Assembly: GCA_022450595.1 (NCBI GenBank)
Contig: JAKUPT010000032.1
Coordinates: 1-32,396 of the forward strand
Length of the DNA stretch: 32,396 bases
From: Bdellovibrionales bacterium
GTDB taxonomy: Bacteria; Bdellovibrionota; Bdellovibrionia; Bdellovibrionales; UBA1609
Direction: 5' to 3'
The notes under the pieces are model-generated. The model did no database searches, was not told where the DNA came from, and was given only the letters and a program-made list of their open reading frames with translations. The stretch's first letter is position 1; each line of letters starts with the position of its first letter. Both the position numbers and the translations under genes were made by a program. Shown here in pieces: positions 10,863 to 17,515 of this stretch.

Positions 10863-11399
10863 TTATTTATTGAGCTCAGGGCCTTTAGTGGGCTCTGAAG
10901 GCTTAATAGAGACTCCCAAGTCCTGATCAAGATGCTTGATTGGCGATTGAGGGTTTTGTACCACTCTTTGCTGTAACTGATTAAAAATTGGCTCACAGAT
11001 CGCCAGACCATTATCTTGAAGCACACACTGGCGCCCCATTCGTGTTTTCACATTAATAATGATCGGTGCCTTTAAGTTGGCTGTCATCTTAGTTGGGTCA
11101 TCTGGGATAGTGATTATACTAAATGCTCTTGATCCCTCTTTTGAGGATAAGCTCAGAGCTATCAAATCGCTCTTAGACATGTCGTATTTGTATTGATCGA
11201 CAAACAGTTCAGGTTCAAGCACTGGAAAGGCTATAGCCGGCTCCTCGCAGCTTTGAAGCCAAGCGAAGATGTCATCATTTGGATCATCTAAAAGAACAAA
11301 TTTACGTAAGCTATTAAAGCCTAGTAGGCCTTCATTAAAAGTAATTAAGTCTTCGGGTGTTATTTCAACAATTCCAAAGCGGGAAGTATGAATTTGCAT
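10863..11399 (-). CDS. fliW: Flagellar assembly factor FliW (CsrA antagonist)
   Basis: A 178-residue protein with the FliW features: MQIHTSRFGIVEI, ITFNEGLLGFNSLRKFVLLD, FAWLQSCEEPAIAFPV, SIITIPDDPTKMTANLKAPIIIN and GRQCVLQDNGLAICEPI. In characterised bacteria FliW binds CsrA and relieves repression of flagellin translation, and is itself titrated by unassembled flagellin. The protein is about 30 residues longer than typical FliW because of a polar C-terminal tail (VQNPQSPIKHLDQDLGV...). It lies directly downstream of csrA on the same strand, 269 bases away. A GAGGGGGC ribosome site precedes the ATG. Confidence 0.94.
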   Translation of the reverse strand: MQIHTSRFGIVEITPEDLITFNEGLLGFNSLRKFVLLDDPNDDIFAWLQSCEEPAIAFPVLEPELFVDQYKYDMSKSDLIALSLSSKEGSRAFSIITIPDDPTKMTANLKAPIIINVKTRMGRQCVLQDNGLAICEPIFNQLQQRVVQNPQSPIKHLDQDLGVSIKPSEPTKGPELNK

Positions 11400-11668: not shown

Positions 11669-11684
11669 TTAAGGCTTTAAGAGT
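11648..11684 (-). terminator. Probable csrA terminator
   Basis: On the minus strand CTTAAAG-ccttaatgt-CTTTAAG is followed by TTTTTATAT and overlaps the csrA stop. The stem is AT-rich, so termination may be incomplete and some transcripts could read into fliW. Confidence 0.45.
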
Positions 11685-11896
11685 TTTGAAACCGCTCTTG
11701 TGTTTTCCGGATTAGATTTTACTGACTCTTCATTCTGATTCTGAATGGCCATGTAAACTTCTTCTCTATGAATTTTTGTATCTTTTGGAGCTTCGATACC
11801 GATTCGTACCTGACGGCCTTTAATTTTAACCACTCTAATCTTTATGTGGTCATCAATGGCTATACTCTCTCCGATTTTTCTCGTTAAGATCAACAT
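11669..11896 (-). CDS. csrA: Carbon storage regulator CsrA
   Basis: A 75-residue RNA-binding dimer subunit. [20 protein letters not shown] and [19 protein letters not shown] contain the N-terminal strand and the VRIGIEAP segment (with its conserved Arg) that contact GGA loops. CsrA represses translation by covering ribosome sites. The C-terminus extends about 15 residues beyond the core, usual for FliW-associated CsrA. The ATG has an AAGGAG ribosome site within a small hairpin. Its position between flgL and fliW places it in the flagellar programme. Confidence 0.97.
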
Positions 11897-11935
11897 GTGT
11901 TGACTCCTTCAACATCCTGGTCAAAGTTCCAGGTT
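11897..11935 (-). promoter_or_regulatory. csrA leader with two CsrA-like binding sites
   Basis: In the transcript UGUUGA-AGGAG-UCAACA (11898-11914) forms a hairpin with GGA and the Shine-Dalgarno in its loop. Directly upstream ACCAGGAUGU (11912-11921) is close to the CsrA consensus ACARGGAUGU. CCTGG/CCAGG can form a second stem around it. Two adjacent sites over the ribosome site are the hallmark of CsrA autoregulation. Confidence 0.6.
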
Positions 11936-12083: not shown

Positions 12084-13196
12084 TTACCTTAAAAAGTCCA
12101 TAAGACTAGGAGTCATAAGTTTCCCTGATGTCTGCAGAGAGGCTTTAAGGGTTTCTTCGGTTTTATTGATATTACTAACAACTTCATAAATGTCTGCATC
12201 TTCTAAGTTTGAGATGGTGGTCTTAGACTGTAATTTACCCTGGGTCAGAGTTTCCTTGGCTGTGTCTAGGGTCATCACTCTGGCGCCTATTTGAGAGCGT
12301 GAGAGAACTACCTGAGAAATGGCCTCATCCAAAACCTCAAGACTTTCTTGAACACCTGTCTTATCATCTGCCATTAAAGAAATCTCTAACTGCTTAAGAG
12401 AGTCAAAAAGATCAATACCTTTATGATAAGCAGGACCAAGCTTATCAACAACGACCTCTTCTCCTTTATCATACACACTGGCCATCCCCCGAAGCTTGGT
12501 TTCAGGCAGTTCTTGTTGTTTTTGACGAATCAATTCTTCTTTGTCTTTAAGCTCTGGACTGATCTGATTATCTGCTTTTAATGCTTCTAACTCTTCTAAG
12601 CTCTCTGGCTGTTCTGTCGTAGAATGACTGACTCCATCACCCGACAAACCTTCACCTAAAAATATTTTACTGCCAGGAATATTCATGGCCACAAACGATC
12701 CCTTATCTATATTGATAAGCATCTCACCGGTATCACCTTTATAATTTCCTTTTTCACTAAATGGGGGCACGGTGGTTTTGTACCCACCAAAAATATAGCG
12801 GTCGCCCATTTTGCGGTTACCAATTCGCACCATTTGTTCATAGATTTGTTTAATCTCTGTGGCCACAACTTCTCTGGACATCTTATTACTGCTTGGGTCG
12901 TTGGCTTGAGAGATGGCAAGCTCTTTAGCTCGCACTAACTGATTGGTTAATTCCTCTAAGGTTGAGTCTGTGAAGTTTAAAAAAGAAAGGGCGTAGTTAA
13001 GATTTTTTTCGTACTGCTTTTTACCCTCTAAGTCCATTCTTTGAGTCAAAACACGGGTGGCAGCCACGGGATCATCAGACGGCTTCGTCACACGCTTTTG
13101 TGTGGCGGCCTGATTTTGATAATTAGACATCTCTGTGCGATTTTTACTCAAGTTATCCTTAACTTGATCAAATCTCATGTTGTCAGAAATGCGCAT
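12084..13196 (-). CDS. flgL: Flagellar hook-filament junction protein FlgL
   Basis: A 370-residue flagellin-like junction protein (HAP3). The N-terminus MRISDNMRFDQVKDNLSKN, with VTKPSDDPVAATRVL and YALSFLNFTDSTLEELTNQLVRAKELAI, is the D0/D1 region. RYIFGGYKTTVPPF is typical of FlgL. The C-terminus SQIGARVMTLDTAKETL... DADIYEVVSNINKTEETLKA matches the flagellin C-terminal helix. It connects FlgK to the filament and is exported with the FlgN chaperone. It is the last flagellar structural gene of the operon, 13 bases after flgK. Confidence 0.95.
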   Translation of the reverse strand: MRISDNMRFDQVKDNLSKNRTEMSNYQNQAATQKRVTKPSDDPVAATRVLTQRMDLEGKKQYEKNLNYALSFLNFTDSTLEELTNQLVRAKELAISQANDPSSNKMSREVVATEIKQIYEQMVRIGNRKMGDRYIFGGYKTTVPPFSEKGNYKGDTGEMLINIDKGSFVAMNIPGSKIFLGEGLSGDGVSHSTTEQPESLEELEALKADNQISPELKDKEELIRQKQQELPETKLRGMASVYDKGEEVVVDKLGPAYHKGIDLFDSLKQLEISLMADDKTGVQESLEVLDEAISQVVLSRSQIGARVMTLDTAKETLTQGKLQSKTTISNLEDADIYEVVSNINKTEETLKASLQTSGKLMTPSLMDFLR

Positions 13197-13209
13197 AGTT
13201 TAATCCCTC

Positions 13210-14637
13210 TTAATAACGCTTTAAATTTAAAACAGTGTCCATCATTTCATCAGCCGCACGAATAAGTCTGGCTGAAGCATCAAAACTTTTTTGAAACTCA
13301 ATCATCTTGGCTGTCTCTTCATCCAAACTCACACCGCTGATGCTTTCTCTAATATTATTTAATTGCTTTAAAACATCATCTTGTGACTCATAAGCCTTGT
13401 TAGCCTTATTGGTCATTATCCCAACCTCACCAACCGTGGTGCTGTAAAAGTCATCGAAAGTGGCGGTTCCGTTTTCCATCATTTGTCGATTTTGAAGTGA
13501 TGAAATAATATTTGCAATTCGGTTATCACCAGGAGAGTTTGGCGATGCTCCTGAAGCCACTAAGCCCACATCACTTGCTACTCGTTCACTGATTCGAATT
13601 TTTTTAGCTGCGTCTTCTTGTGAAGCTAGGGGTTTAAAAAACTCAACACCTTTTTGGTTGTAGCGGTTGTATCCCTCTTTGTGGATACGGTTGACATTTT
13701 CTTGCACACCAAAAGCGAGTTTATCTAACTTATTTTGTAGATCCATAATTGTCTTATCACGAGTTTCTATAAGTCCACCTAATGCTCCTGAGTTGATCTG
13801 CTTTGTAACATTTACGGGAGTGCCTTGCTTGCTCGGCTTATAATAAATGTCTAAATGACCTTCTCGTTTTGCGCCTTGCCCAGTTATAGGGGCAACAAAG
13901 AGCTCTCTTGTGGAATAGCCACTCACTAAAATCGCAGAGTTTCCTGCCGTCACAGTCACAGCTCCATTATCACTCTCAGCCCACTTGATATTCATTTTTT
14001 CACTAAGCTCTTTTAATAAAACATCTCGGCGGTCTCTTTCGTCATTTGGCAAGCCGCCTGAGATCTCAACCTTTTGAATCTTTTCATTTAAATCTGCAAT
14101 TTCGTCGGTGATGGCATTCACTTCTGCCACCACTGTTGTGATTTGATAATCGATGTCGTTTTTAATCTCTGTTAACTGGCCATCCACACGTTGAAAGTCT
14201 CTGGCTAAAAAATCACCGGACTCTTTTACAAGAGTTCTTGAAGCCAAACTCTCTGGATTGTTAGAAAGCTCACGGAAGGCGTTAAAAAATTCGGCCATAT
14301 GTTTATTAAGACCTTTATTCACCTGTTCGTTATACACTTGCTCCACACGAGCCATGGTCTCAGCGCGTGCTTTGTTGTAACCTAAGGCTTTACTTTCTTT
14401 TTTAAGTTGCTTACCAAGATATTCGTTATTGATGCGCTCAACAGATGAAGCTTTCGCCCCCGTACCAATACGAGTTTTACCACTGCCTATGGGCACATTT
14501 GATTGAAAGTTCACTCTTTGTCTTGAGTACCCCTCAGTGGATTTATTAGCAATGTTATGGCTGACGGTTTGAAGGCCGGTTTGGCTATTTTGCATAGCCC
14601 TTTTGCCTATATCCATCATCGACCAAATCTTAGACAT
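13210..14637 (-). CDS. flgK: Flagellar hook-associated protein FlgK
   Basis: A 475-residue HAP1. The N-terminus SKIWSMMDIGKRAMQNSQTG is followed by LQTVSHNIANKSTEGYSRQRV, the rod/hook-family signature. The middle has AEFFNAFRELSNNPESLASR. The C-terminus has DEETAKMIEFQKSFDASARL and ending DTVLNLKRY. It is shorter than the enteric protein (about 547 aa), with a reduced central domain. It forms the first junction zone on the hook tip. Order flgN-flgK-flgL follows the usual chaperone-client arrangement. Confidence 0.95.
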   Translation of the reverse strand: MSKIWSMMDIGKRAMQNSQTGLQTVSHNIANKSTEGYSRQRVNFQSNVPIGSGKTRIGTGAKASSVERINNEYLGKQLKKESKALGYNKARAETMARVEQVYNEQVNKGLNKHMAEFFNAFRELSNNPESLASRTLVKESGDFLARDFQRVDGQLTEIKNDIDYQITTVVAEVNAITDEIADLNEKIQKVEISGGLPNDERDRRDVLLKELSEKMNIKWAESDNGAVTVTAGNSAILVSGYSTRELFVAPITGQGAKREGHLDIYYKPSKQGTPVNVTKQINSGALGGLIETRDKTIMDLQNKLDKLAFGVQENVNRIHKEGYNRYNQKGVEFFKPLASQEDAAKKIRISERVASDVGLVASGASPNSPGDNRIANIISSLQNRQMMENGTATFDDFYSTTVGEVGIMTNKANKAYESQDDVLKQLNNIRESISGVSLDEETAKMIEFQKSFDASARLIRAADEMMDTVLNLKRY

Positions 14638-15630: not shown

Positions 15631-16257
15631 CTAGCTTTTCACTACCCAAGTCAAGCCTCTTGTACCTGGGCTCATCTCTCCCAACTTAAGTCCAGCATCT
15701 AATTGTTGATGATTTTGCTTGGAATGAAGATTTCCATAGAAACTAAGAGTCGATTTTAAACCATTGTCGTGCTTTAAATGGATTATATTTCGTCCTTCAA
15801 TGTTCATTTCACCAATTTTTTGACCACTCCAGGGCATCACCACAGATTCCCCGCCTTTAAATTCTTGTTGAAATTGAATGGCAGCGCCCTTTTGTTTTTT
15901 CAAAGGATGAACTTGGCCTTTGGTGTTTTTATCAACATCTATGGGACCACGGGGGGCATTAATGTTTTGATTGGGAAATATCTTTTCATGCATCTGCTTA
16001 TAAATTAAATCAGCAAGACCAATTCCCCCTTGCTGATTCCAAGTATCTACATACTCTTCATCCATTTTGCTTTTATAGATTTTTTCGGCATAACTCTCTG
16101 GAACCAAATCGCTTTTAGGAACGGTTTTACGCATTTGTTTCACCATCTCATTTAAAAAGTGACGCTCATACATTTTAGAAGCTTGCTTTAGTTTTTCTTC
16201 CTGCTGTTGTTGAGTGGTTTGTTTTTGTGTTGGAATATATTTAGGACCGATGTTCAA
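15631..16257 (-). CDS. flgJ: FlgJ-like rod protein with a degenerate M23-like C-terminus
   Basis: A 208-residue protein. Residues 20-95 (ASKMYERHFLNEMVKQMRKT, YKSKMDEEYVDTWNQQGGIGLADLIYKQM) are the FlgJ rod-capping domain. Residues 130-208 look like a LytM/M23 peptidase fold (VVMPWSGQKIGEM, IIHLKHDNGLKSTLSFYGNL, LDAGLKLGEMSPG). However, the HxH metal ligand position reads GLTWVV, so it should be inactive. Enteric FlgJ instead has a GH73 muramidase. The start is TTG at 16257 with AGGAG 7 bases upstream; no ATG fits. It follows the ncRNA terminator within 20 bases. Confidence 0.85.
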   Translation of the reverse strand: MNIGPKYIPTQKQTTQQQQEEKLKQASKMYERHFLNEMVKQMRKTVPKSDLVPESYAEKIYKSKMDEEYVDTWNQQGGIGLADLIYKQMHEKIFPNQNINAPRGPIDVDKNTKGQVHPLKKQKGAAIQFQQEFKGGESVVMPWSGQKIGEMNIEGRNIIHLKHDNGLKSTLSFYGNLHSKQNHQQLDAGLKLGEMSPGTRGLTWVVKS

Positions 16258-16277: not shown

Positions 16278-16478
16278 AAAAAAAAAGGAATGATGAGCTG
16301 AGATTATGTGTGCATCCTGCACTTCACCTAACATTGTTGGTACGTGGTCAATCCTTGACACATACTGAATGTTTTCACCCGTTTCCTGCGAGAAACTGGT
16401 ATCTGGTAACCTTCCTTGGTTTTCGCTCCCTAGCTCACCATCCCTAGAGGAGAAGCACGTCCATGTGCAAGGCTCCTC
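16278..16478 (-). ncRNA. Structured RNA with multiple GGA loops, candidate CsrA-sequestering sRNA
   Basis: In the flgI-flgJ gap the minus strand folds strongly. GGGAUGGUGAGCU (16432-16444) pairs over 13 bases with AGCUCAUCAUUCC (16287-16299), followed by nine U, giving a built-in terminator. Inside are hairpins AACC-AAGGAA-GGUU (16408-16421), a bulged stem with UCA-AGGAU-UGA at its tip (16340-16365) and GUGC-AGGAU-GCAC (16310-16322). Upstream is GAGGAG...CUCCUC with GCAC-AUGGAC-GUGC (16447-16478). About eight GGA motifs occur in 200 bases, at least four in hairpin loops. This is the CsrB/RsmZ plan. A 90-residue frame here (16254-16526) has no family resemblance and is probably spurious. TACTAT at about 16487-16492 is a possible -10; no clear -35 was found. 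Confidence 0.7.
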
Positions 16479-16522
16479 ATAATTAATAGTATTAAATAAA
16501 TTAAAAACACTTAAATGCTTTT

Positions 16523-17515
16523 TCATAAAACTTCAATATCCCCCTGCAAAGCTCCAGCTGCTTTGATATTTTGAAGGATTGTAATCAGGTCTTTTGGAGA
16601 GACTCCTAGCTCATTCATGGCTTTTACAAGTTCTCCCACACTAACCTCAGACTTTAAGTCCATAATTCTTTTGTCTTGCTTTTTTTCTCCATTTCCAACT
16701 TTTAAAGATAGATCTCCATGAGTGATGGCAATCGGAGACACACGAACCCCTTGCCCTATAACCACAGTGCCTGTTTTTTCATTCACAACCACTTTGGCTT
16801 TAGTGTCTGTATCCACATCAATAGACTCAATTAATGCTAACAGCTCTACCCCCTTACCTTCAAAGGCTGGAGGTGAAACCAAATCAATCGTCGAGGCATC
16901 TTTTGCGGTGGCATACTTACCGGCCAAGTCAATGTTGATCACTTTGGCCACACGAGCGGCTGTGGTGAAGTCTGGGTTGTTTAATGTTAATCTAAATAAT
17001 TTTTTTGATGAAAACTCCCCACCAATGTCTCTCTCAATGATCGCGCCATTAGGAATTCTAGCCACGGTTTCATGAACCCCACTTTGACTGTGCCCTACAA
17101 TGGCTGAGCCTTGTGCTACAGCGTAGATTTGTTGATCCGCGGCTCTTAGTGGAGTTTGTACTAATGTCCCTCCACGAAGGCTTGAGGCATCTCCAATTGA
17201 ATTGATCGTGACATCGATTTTATTACCCGCTCTTGCAAATGGAGGTAGCGATGCAGTTAAAAGCACTGCGGCCACATTTTTACTTGCAGCTTCTCCGTTA
17301 ACCTTCATACCTAATTTATCCAACATTCTTGTGATACTTTTATTGGTGTACTCTGACTTACTGTCCCCAGTTCCACTTAGGCCCACAACAATTCCATATC
17401 CCACAAGTTGGTTGGCCCTCACTCCACGAATGCTGGCGATGTCTTTAAGTCTCGCCGCTTCCAGCTGGATCAAAGAAAACAAAGTAATAATAAAAAATAC
17501 TAACTTTAACTTCAT
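16523..17515 (-). CDS. flgI: Flagellar P-ring protein FlgI
   Basis: A 330-residue periplasmic ring protein. Signal peptide MKLKLVFFIITLFSLIQLEA is followed by ARLKDIASIRGVRANQLVGY, GIVVGLSGTGDS, VAAVLLTASLPPFARAGNKI, GDASSLRGGTLVQTPLRA and VVNEKTGTVVIGQGVRVSPI, all hallmarks. It is about 30 residues shorter than enteric FlgI but complete. It forms the peptidoglycan-level bushing of the rod with help from FlgA. It overlaps flgH at its start by a few bases and ends at the ncRNA promoter region. Confidence 0.97.
   Translation of the reverse strand: MKLKLVFFIITLFSLIQLEAARLKDIASIRGVRANQLVGYGIVVGLSGTGDSKSEYTNKSITRMLDKLGMKVNGEAASKNVAAVLLTASLPPFARAGNKIDVTINSIGDASSLRGGTLVQTPLRAADQQIYAVAQGSAIVGHSQSGVHETVARIPNGAIIERDIGGEFSSKKLFRLTLNNPDFTTAARVAKVINIDLAGKYATAKDASTIDLVSPPAFEGKGVELLALIESIDVDTDTKAKVVVNEKTGTVVIGQGVRVSPIAITHGDLSLKVGNGEKKQDKRIMDLKSEVSVGELVKAMNELGVSPKDLITILQNIKAAGALQGDIEVL

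Follow-up and report, generated by a model that had tools for sequence, protein, structure and literature searches.

The small RNAs CsrB/CsrC and RsmX/Y/Z (Rfam clan CL00106, for example RF00018) are stand-alone sRNAs with several A(N)GGA hairpins and a terminator hairpin; the repeat in CsrB is CAGGA(U/A/C)G and the SELEX consensus is RUACARGGAUGU (PMC7652899). A second known system is the FliW-CsrA-flagellin switch of B. subtilis and C. jejuni, in which csrA and fliW lie in the flagellar locus, CsrA carries N55 and an extended C-terminus, and there is no dedicated antagonist sRNA. The fliW gene is absent from Gammaproteobacteria and tends not to co-occur with the two-component system driving the Csr sRNAs, according to a 2020 review in which joint action of FliW and an sRNA on CsrA remains undecided for any species (PMC7652899). 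Two attack-phase RNAs of Bdellovibrio bacteriovorus HD100 are also relevant. One, merRNA, contains a c-di-GMP riboswitch and is listed at 1,073,741-1,074,185 on the minus strand (PMC3627812). The other, APsRNA1, is a 207-nt transcript with a mapped start, located at 499,375-499,581 on the plus strand and enriched 16-fold in the attack phase (50,451 RPKM, versus 3,181 RPKM in the growth phase); no FliA promoter is marked for it in the source table (Karunker et al. 2013, PMC3627812). In the portions of that report available to us, APsRNA1 is an orphan sRNA for which no significant homology outside B. bacteriovorus, no function and no link to CsrA are given (PMC3627812), and an open-licence literature search found no further paper that mentions it.

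The window analysed here, a 32,396-nt stretch of DNA from a Bdellovibrionales bacterium, combines elements of these systems in a single flagellar locus. A sequence-only reading had placed a candidate CsrA-titrating RNA between flgI and flgJ, with csrA 4.4 kb downstream beside fliW. Both the gene positions and the presence of a folded GGA-loop RNA in the gap, on the minus strand, were borne out, with Pfam matches for CsrA, FliW, FlgI, the FlgJ-type rod-binding protein, FlgM and FlgN. The features of the locus are the following:

16523..17515, minus strand: flgI, always immediately upstream of the RNA
16481..16497, minus strand: -10-like box TTTAATACTAT, 5' of the presumed start; putative promoter, with a spacing to H1 equal to that of HD100 TTTAATACAAT
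16278..16480, minus strand: complete CsrA-sponge-like RNA, 203 nt including the terminator; 5' end placed at 16480 from the mapped start of HD100 APsRNA1
16447..16478, minus strand: hairpin H1, GCACAUGGACGUGC; loop GGA at 16462-16460
16427..16445, minus strand: closing helix, 5' arm (14 bp plus inner 4 bp)
16408..16421, minus strand: hairpin H2, AACCAAGGAAGGUU; GGA at 16415-16413
16377..16400, minus strand: hairpin H3, GUUUCUCGCAGGAAAC; GGA at 16386-16384, partly in the stem
16347..16359, minus strand: hairpin H4 core, GUCAAGGAUUGAC; GGA at 16354-16352
16310..16322, minus strand: hairpin H5, GUGCAGGAUGCAC; GGA at 16317-16315, exact CsrB-type repeat CAGGAUG
16278..16303, minus strand: closing helix, 3' arm, and U9 tract, together an intrinsic terminator
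15631..16257, minus strand: flgJ-type gene (rod-binding domain), immediately downstream; TTG start, AGGAG ribosome-binding site
11904..11926, minus strand: leader of csrA, with hairpin CUUUGAC-CAGGAU-GUUGAAG ahead of the Shine-Dalgarno AGGAG; probably the site of CsrA autorepression
11669..11896, minus strand: csrA, 75 aa (L4, R44, N55), proposed binding partner
10863..11399, minus strand: fliW, CsrA protein antagonist in other bacteria

The RNA was assigned to the minus strand because the flanking genes run on it; after the RNA they follow in the order flgJ-type, flgM, flgN, flgK, flgL, csrA and fliW. The minus-strand fold of 16278-16478 reaches -70.6 kcal/mol (z = -4.61), a value that none of 200 shuffles matched, whereas a plus-strand RNA, which would fold more weakly (z = -2.42) and run antisense to the genes, was rejected. 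The RNA contains exactly eight GGA motifs, in line with the approximate count proposed at the outset, and four of them lie in hairpin loops, compared with a mean of 0.48 in shuffled sequences and with no shuffle out of 500 reaching four. No second 210-nt stretch with four GGA-loop hairpins was found on either strand of the window. The U9 tract of the sequence-only reading stands (16286-16278, directly after the closing helix), while its 13-bp closing helix measures 14 bp plus an inner 4 bp, with arms at 16445-16427 and 16303-16286; its loop motifs, AGGAU twice, AAGGAA and AUGGAC, had to be replaced by the set ACAUGGACGU (H1), ACCAAGGAAGGU (H2), CGCAGGAAAC (H3), GUCAAGGAUUGAC (H4) and GUGCAGGAUGCAC (H5). 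Elsewhere in the window, the flgK-flgL junction (13190-13240, minus strand) also carries GGA-containing hairpins, including UCAAGUUAAGGAUAACUUGA, and may be a further CsrA site.

A transcript of about 200 nt had been suggested as a check, and published RNA data supply one. In genome G059, which we take to be that of B. bacteriovorus HD100, the element lies at 499,327-499,607, overlapping the coordinates of APsRNA1 with the same strand and ends; a TACAAT box precedes the reported start by about 6 nt, H1 follows closely after that start, and the U tract contains the reported end. The HD100 copy of the flgI-flgJ RNA is APsRNA1, the orthologue itself, and the RNA is therefore real and separately transcribed. 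In the window, a TACTAT box occurs at the same spacing as the HD100 box, which places the likely start at about 16480. Since enrichment of a -10 box across the homologue family is weak (4.52 versus 4.39), the window promoter is drawn by analogy with HD100, the source of all start-site and expression data used here. The sequence-only reading had seen no GEMM-I signature and left a relation to merRNA open. Although merRNA is likewise an attack-phase RNA of B. bacteriovorus, it differs from the flgI-flgJ RNA in locus, strand and length; it lies at another HD100 locus and the RNA has no Rfam match, so identity with merRNA or another c-di-GMP riboswitch was rejected.

The RNA is far more widespread than the published description of APsRNA1, confined to B. 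bacteriovorus, would imply, with homologues in ten families and a second order. A DNA search of 59 relatives recovered homologues at about 67-78% identity, and in every case with both flanks present they lay between flgI and flgJ. When public genomes were scanned with a pattern, 30 of the 32 matches lay beside flgI and/or flgJ in records of Bdellovibrio and its relatives; the matches in a Myxococcaceae bin (L029) and in Lautropia (L048), which have neither flgI/flgJ nor the scaffold, were dismissed as chance. With the covariance model R1, the RNA was found in 105 of the 141 genomes of the order, which represent the ten families, with one convincing copy each, and over the whole phylum in just three further genomes, which belong to a second order of the same class and again carry it between flgI and flgJ. 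The figure of 105 is a lower bound, because genus g33 has a diverged version (7 of 14 genomes). Some g33 species (L129, L132, L133, L136 and L140) have lost the RNA outright, leaving a flgI-flgJ gap of 55-92 nt, and keep csrA, fliW and flagella; they are natural knock-outs. A relocated copy in the g33 species without the RNA would have favoured a role in trans, and none that was convincing was found there with the g33-specific model R2. Separately, in genome G047, two near-identical structured elements with GGCCACGGAUGGCC and GACAGGAUGUC hairpins (L114, 39-199, plus strand; L115, 2544-2704, minus strand) matched R1 weakly and away from flgI, and were treated as a second structured element unrelated to the RNA.

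Conservation of the GGA loops in relatives and covariation across the flgI-flgJ gaps had both been named as tests of the original proposal, and both came out in its favour. Among 41 sequences, changes on both sides were seen in 23 of 42 pairs, and 91.8% of cells pair, compared with 42-48% when the partners are slid. For 100 sequences, a purpose-written test was used (tree-aware G-test with average-product correction, and null alignments evolved on a FastTree tree). Across all column pairs, five reached E<0.05, all five structural; the six top-scoring of about 19,000 column pairs were likewise all structural, and 16 of 42 pairs passed the structure-only test. The 100-sequence alignment behind these results was fitted to the model; an unfitted MAFFT alignment gave three significant pairs, again all structural. 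Nested covariation outside the model was also observed at A4 columns 5-42, 6-41 and 7-40, which probably lengthens the H1 stem at its outer end. As the covariation shows, the RNA forms a closed, multi-branched scaffold from which four to five hairpins with GGA project. Distant families have fewer or altered hairpins (three remain in G047) and keep the closing helix and U tract.

The pattern of change within the hairpins bears on what the loops are for. Across the 100 homologues the GGA triplets of H1-H5 are 89-100% conserved (median column, 74%), and the stems around them switch, from CAAGGAUUG to CACGGAGUG in H4 and from GUGCAGGAUGCAC to GCACAGGAUGUGC or GGCGCAGGAAGCGC in H5. A structured RNA with some other job, be it a base-pairing sRNA, an RNA stabiliser or a processed flgI 3' UTR, might display GGA loops that are not meant for CsrA, and structure and expression alone do not identify a partner. 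Yet selection on the loop GGA while the flanking stems change freely is the recognition mode of CsrA, and the single-stranded seed regions are poorly conserved among homologues, so that we regard such another job as quite improbable.

A conserved protein encoded by the 90-residue frame (16526-16254, minus strand) deserves practically no credence. That frame is open in the window and some frame is open through the RNA in 61 of 100 homologues, but the other 39 are closed in all frames and the homologue hairpins occur in many different relative frames. Synonymous-biased conservation of the frame had been named as grounds for abandoning an RNA; substitutions by codon position are instead 502/635/376, as against 2320/749/12502 in the neighbouring flgI; in the frame, non-synonymous codon changes (992) outnumber synonymous ones (185), and it has no Pfam match. 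The codon-position comparison with flgI led us to reject a conserved small protein.

The presumed partner is present throughout. Every one of the 103 good-quality genomes of the order has CsrA; of all 141 genomes, 118 have FliW and 121 have FlgI. When set against the E. coli and B. subtilis proteins, the window CsrA keeps L4 and R44, residues for RNA binding, and has the N55 and long C-terminus of FliW-regulated CsrA. CsrA may in addition control its own synthesis, a point that unexpectedly favours the CsrA reading: the csrA leader hairpin presents a CAGGAU hexaloop followed by a GGA in the Shine-Dalgarno sequence, the classic double site for CsrA repression, and is probably an autorepression site. 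The leader CUUUGACCAGGAUGUUGAAGGAG or a close variant occurs in 13 of 21 genomes sampled (L191-L200, L202 and L205 among the loci); within that sample it was absent from genus Bdellovibrio and from g33.

Against this background, the RNA resembles the CsrB/RsmZ class in two of its features, namely multiple conserved GGA loops above chance (4 versus 0.48; 89-100% conserved) and a discrete untranslated transcript with an intrinsic terminator, its expression being known from HD100 only. Its hairpins match the CsrB repeat and the SELEX consensus, with exact CAGGAUG repeats, and by this likeness it would also work in the same way, binding and sequestering CsrA. Unlike CsrB and RsmX/Y/Z, it sits in a flagellar operon and co-occurs with FliW; unlike the FliW-CsrA-flagellin switch, the locus has a sponge-like RNA. 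Membership of a known Rfam family was rejected, as neither the window RNA nor six homologues had an Rfam match, with RF00018 (CsrB) scoring 10.3 bits (E 0.86) against a gathering cut-off of 71.

The chief doubt is whether the RNA acts in cis or in trans, because it stays in the flgI-flgJ gap in all loci examined and vanishes with the flagellum: it is missing from all 20 genomes that lack FlgI, though many of them keep CsrA, most without FliW. In the window's family, genomes of 1.2-2.0 Mb (G016, G030, G013, G029, G028, G137, G012, G001 and others) have no FlgI and no RNA, most have no FliW, and CsrA is kept. The constant position and the loss with the flagellum would also fit a CsrA-responsive mid-operon terminator or leader that sets read-through into flgJ-flgM-flgN-flgK-flgL-csrA-fliW and so gives CsrA feedback, all the more as the terminator precedes flgJ, with csrA and fliW downstream on the same strand. 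On the other hand, HD100 makes the RNA abundantly, as a separate 207-nt molecule whose own start has been mapped, which argues for a role in trans, and about five sites exceed what an attenuator needs. We therefore consider such a cis-acting device unlikely.

The probable explanation, in our judgement, is a conserved small RNA that titrates CsrA and is built like CsrB/RsmZ, analogous to these RNAs and outside the CsrB Rfam family. The titrating reading made from the letters alone is thus upheld by those of its own refuting tests that could be run, on the frame and on the GGA loops. Such an RNA would start at the end of flgI and stop at its own terminator, as the HD100 orthologue does; CsrA dimers would bind the hairpins and be drawn off their mRNA targets. 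As the RNA is enriched in the attack phase in Bdellovibrio, its most likely effect would be to free flagellar and attack-phase mRNAs from CsrA repression while cells swim, together with FliW, the RNA and FliW then being two separate inputs to one CsrA. Three further observations speak against a sponge: H3 is less canonical, with its GGA partly inside the stem; some g33 species have csrA, fliW and flgI but no RNA; and no GacA/UvrY box (TGTAAG-N6-CTTACA) was found near the promoter, matches in the window being at chance level.

In a lineage that includes a cultured predator, csrA and fliW share a single flagellar locus with a sponge-like RNA that is strongly conserved, although FliW had been the presumed antagonist of CsrA in these bacteria. 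The transcript itself had been reported before; we found no account of its conservation, structure or likely function in the open-licence papers searched, and subscription papers could hold more. Since the review leaves joint control by FliW and an sRNA open (PMC7652899), the lineage offers a directly testable case. We hold it at even chances that CsrA of the Bdellovibrionales-type lineage has two antagonists, FliW acting allosterically and the conserved flagellar-operon RNA (APsRNA1) by competition, and that this RNA, being enriched in the attack phase, could contribute to the change between swimming and growth in prey. The present analysis proposes a function for the orphan attack-phase sRNA of 2013, and points to post-transcriptional control as one layer of the predator's switch between attack and growth.
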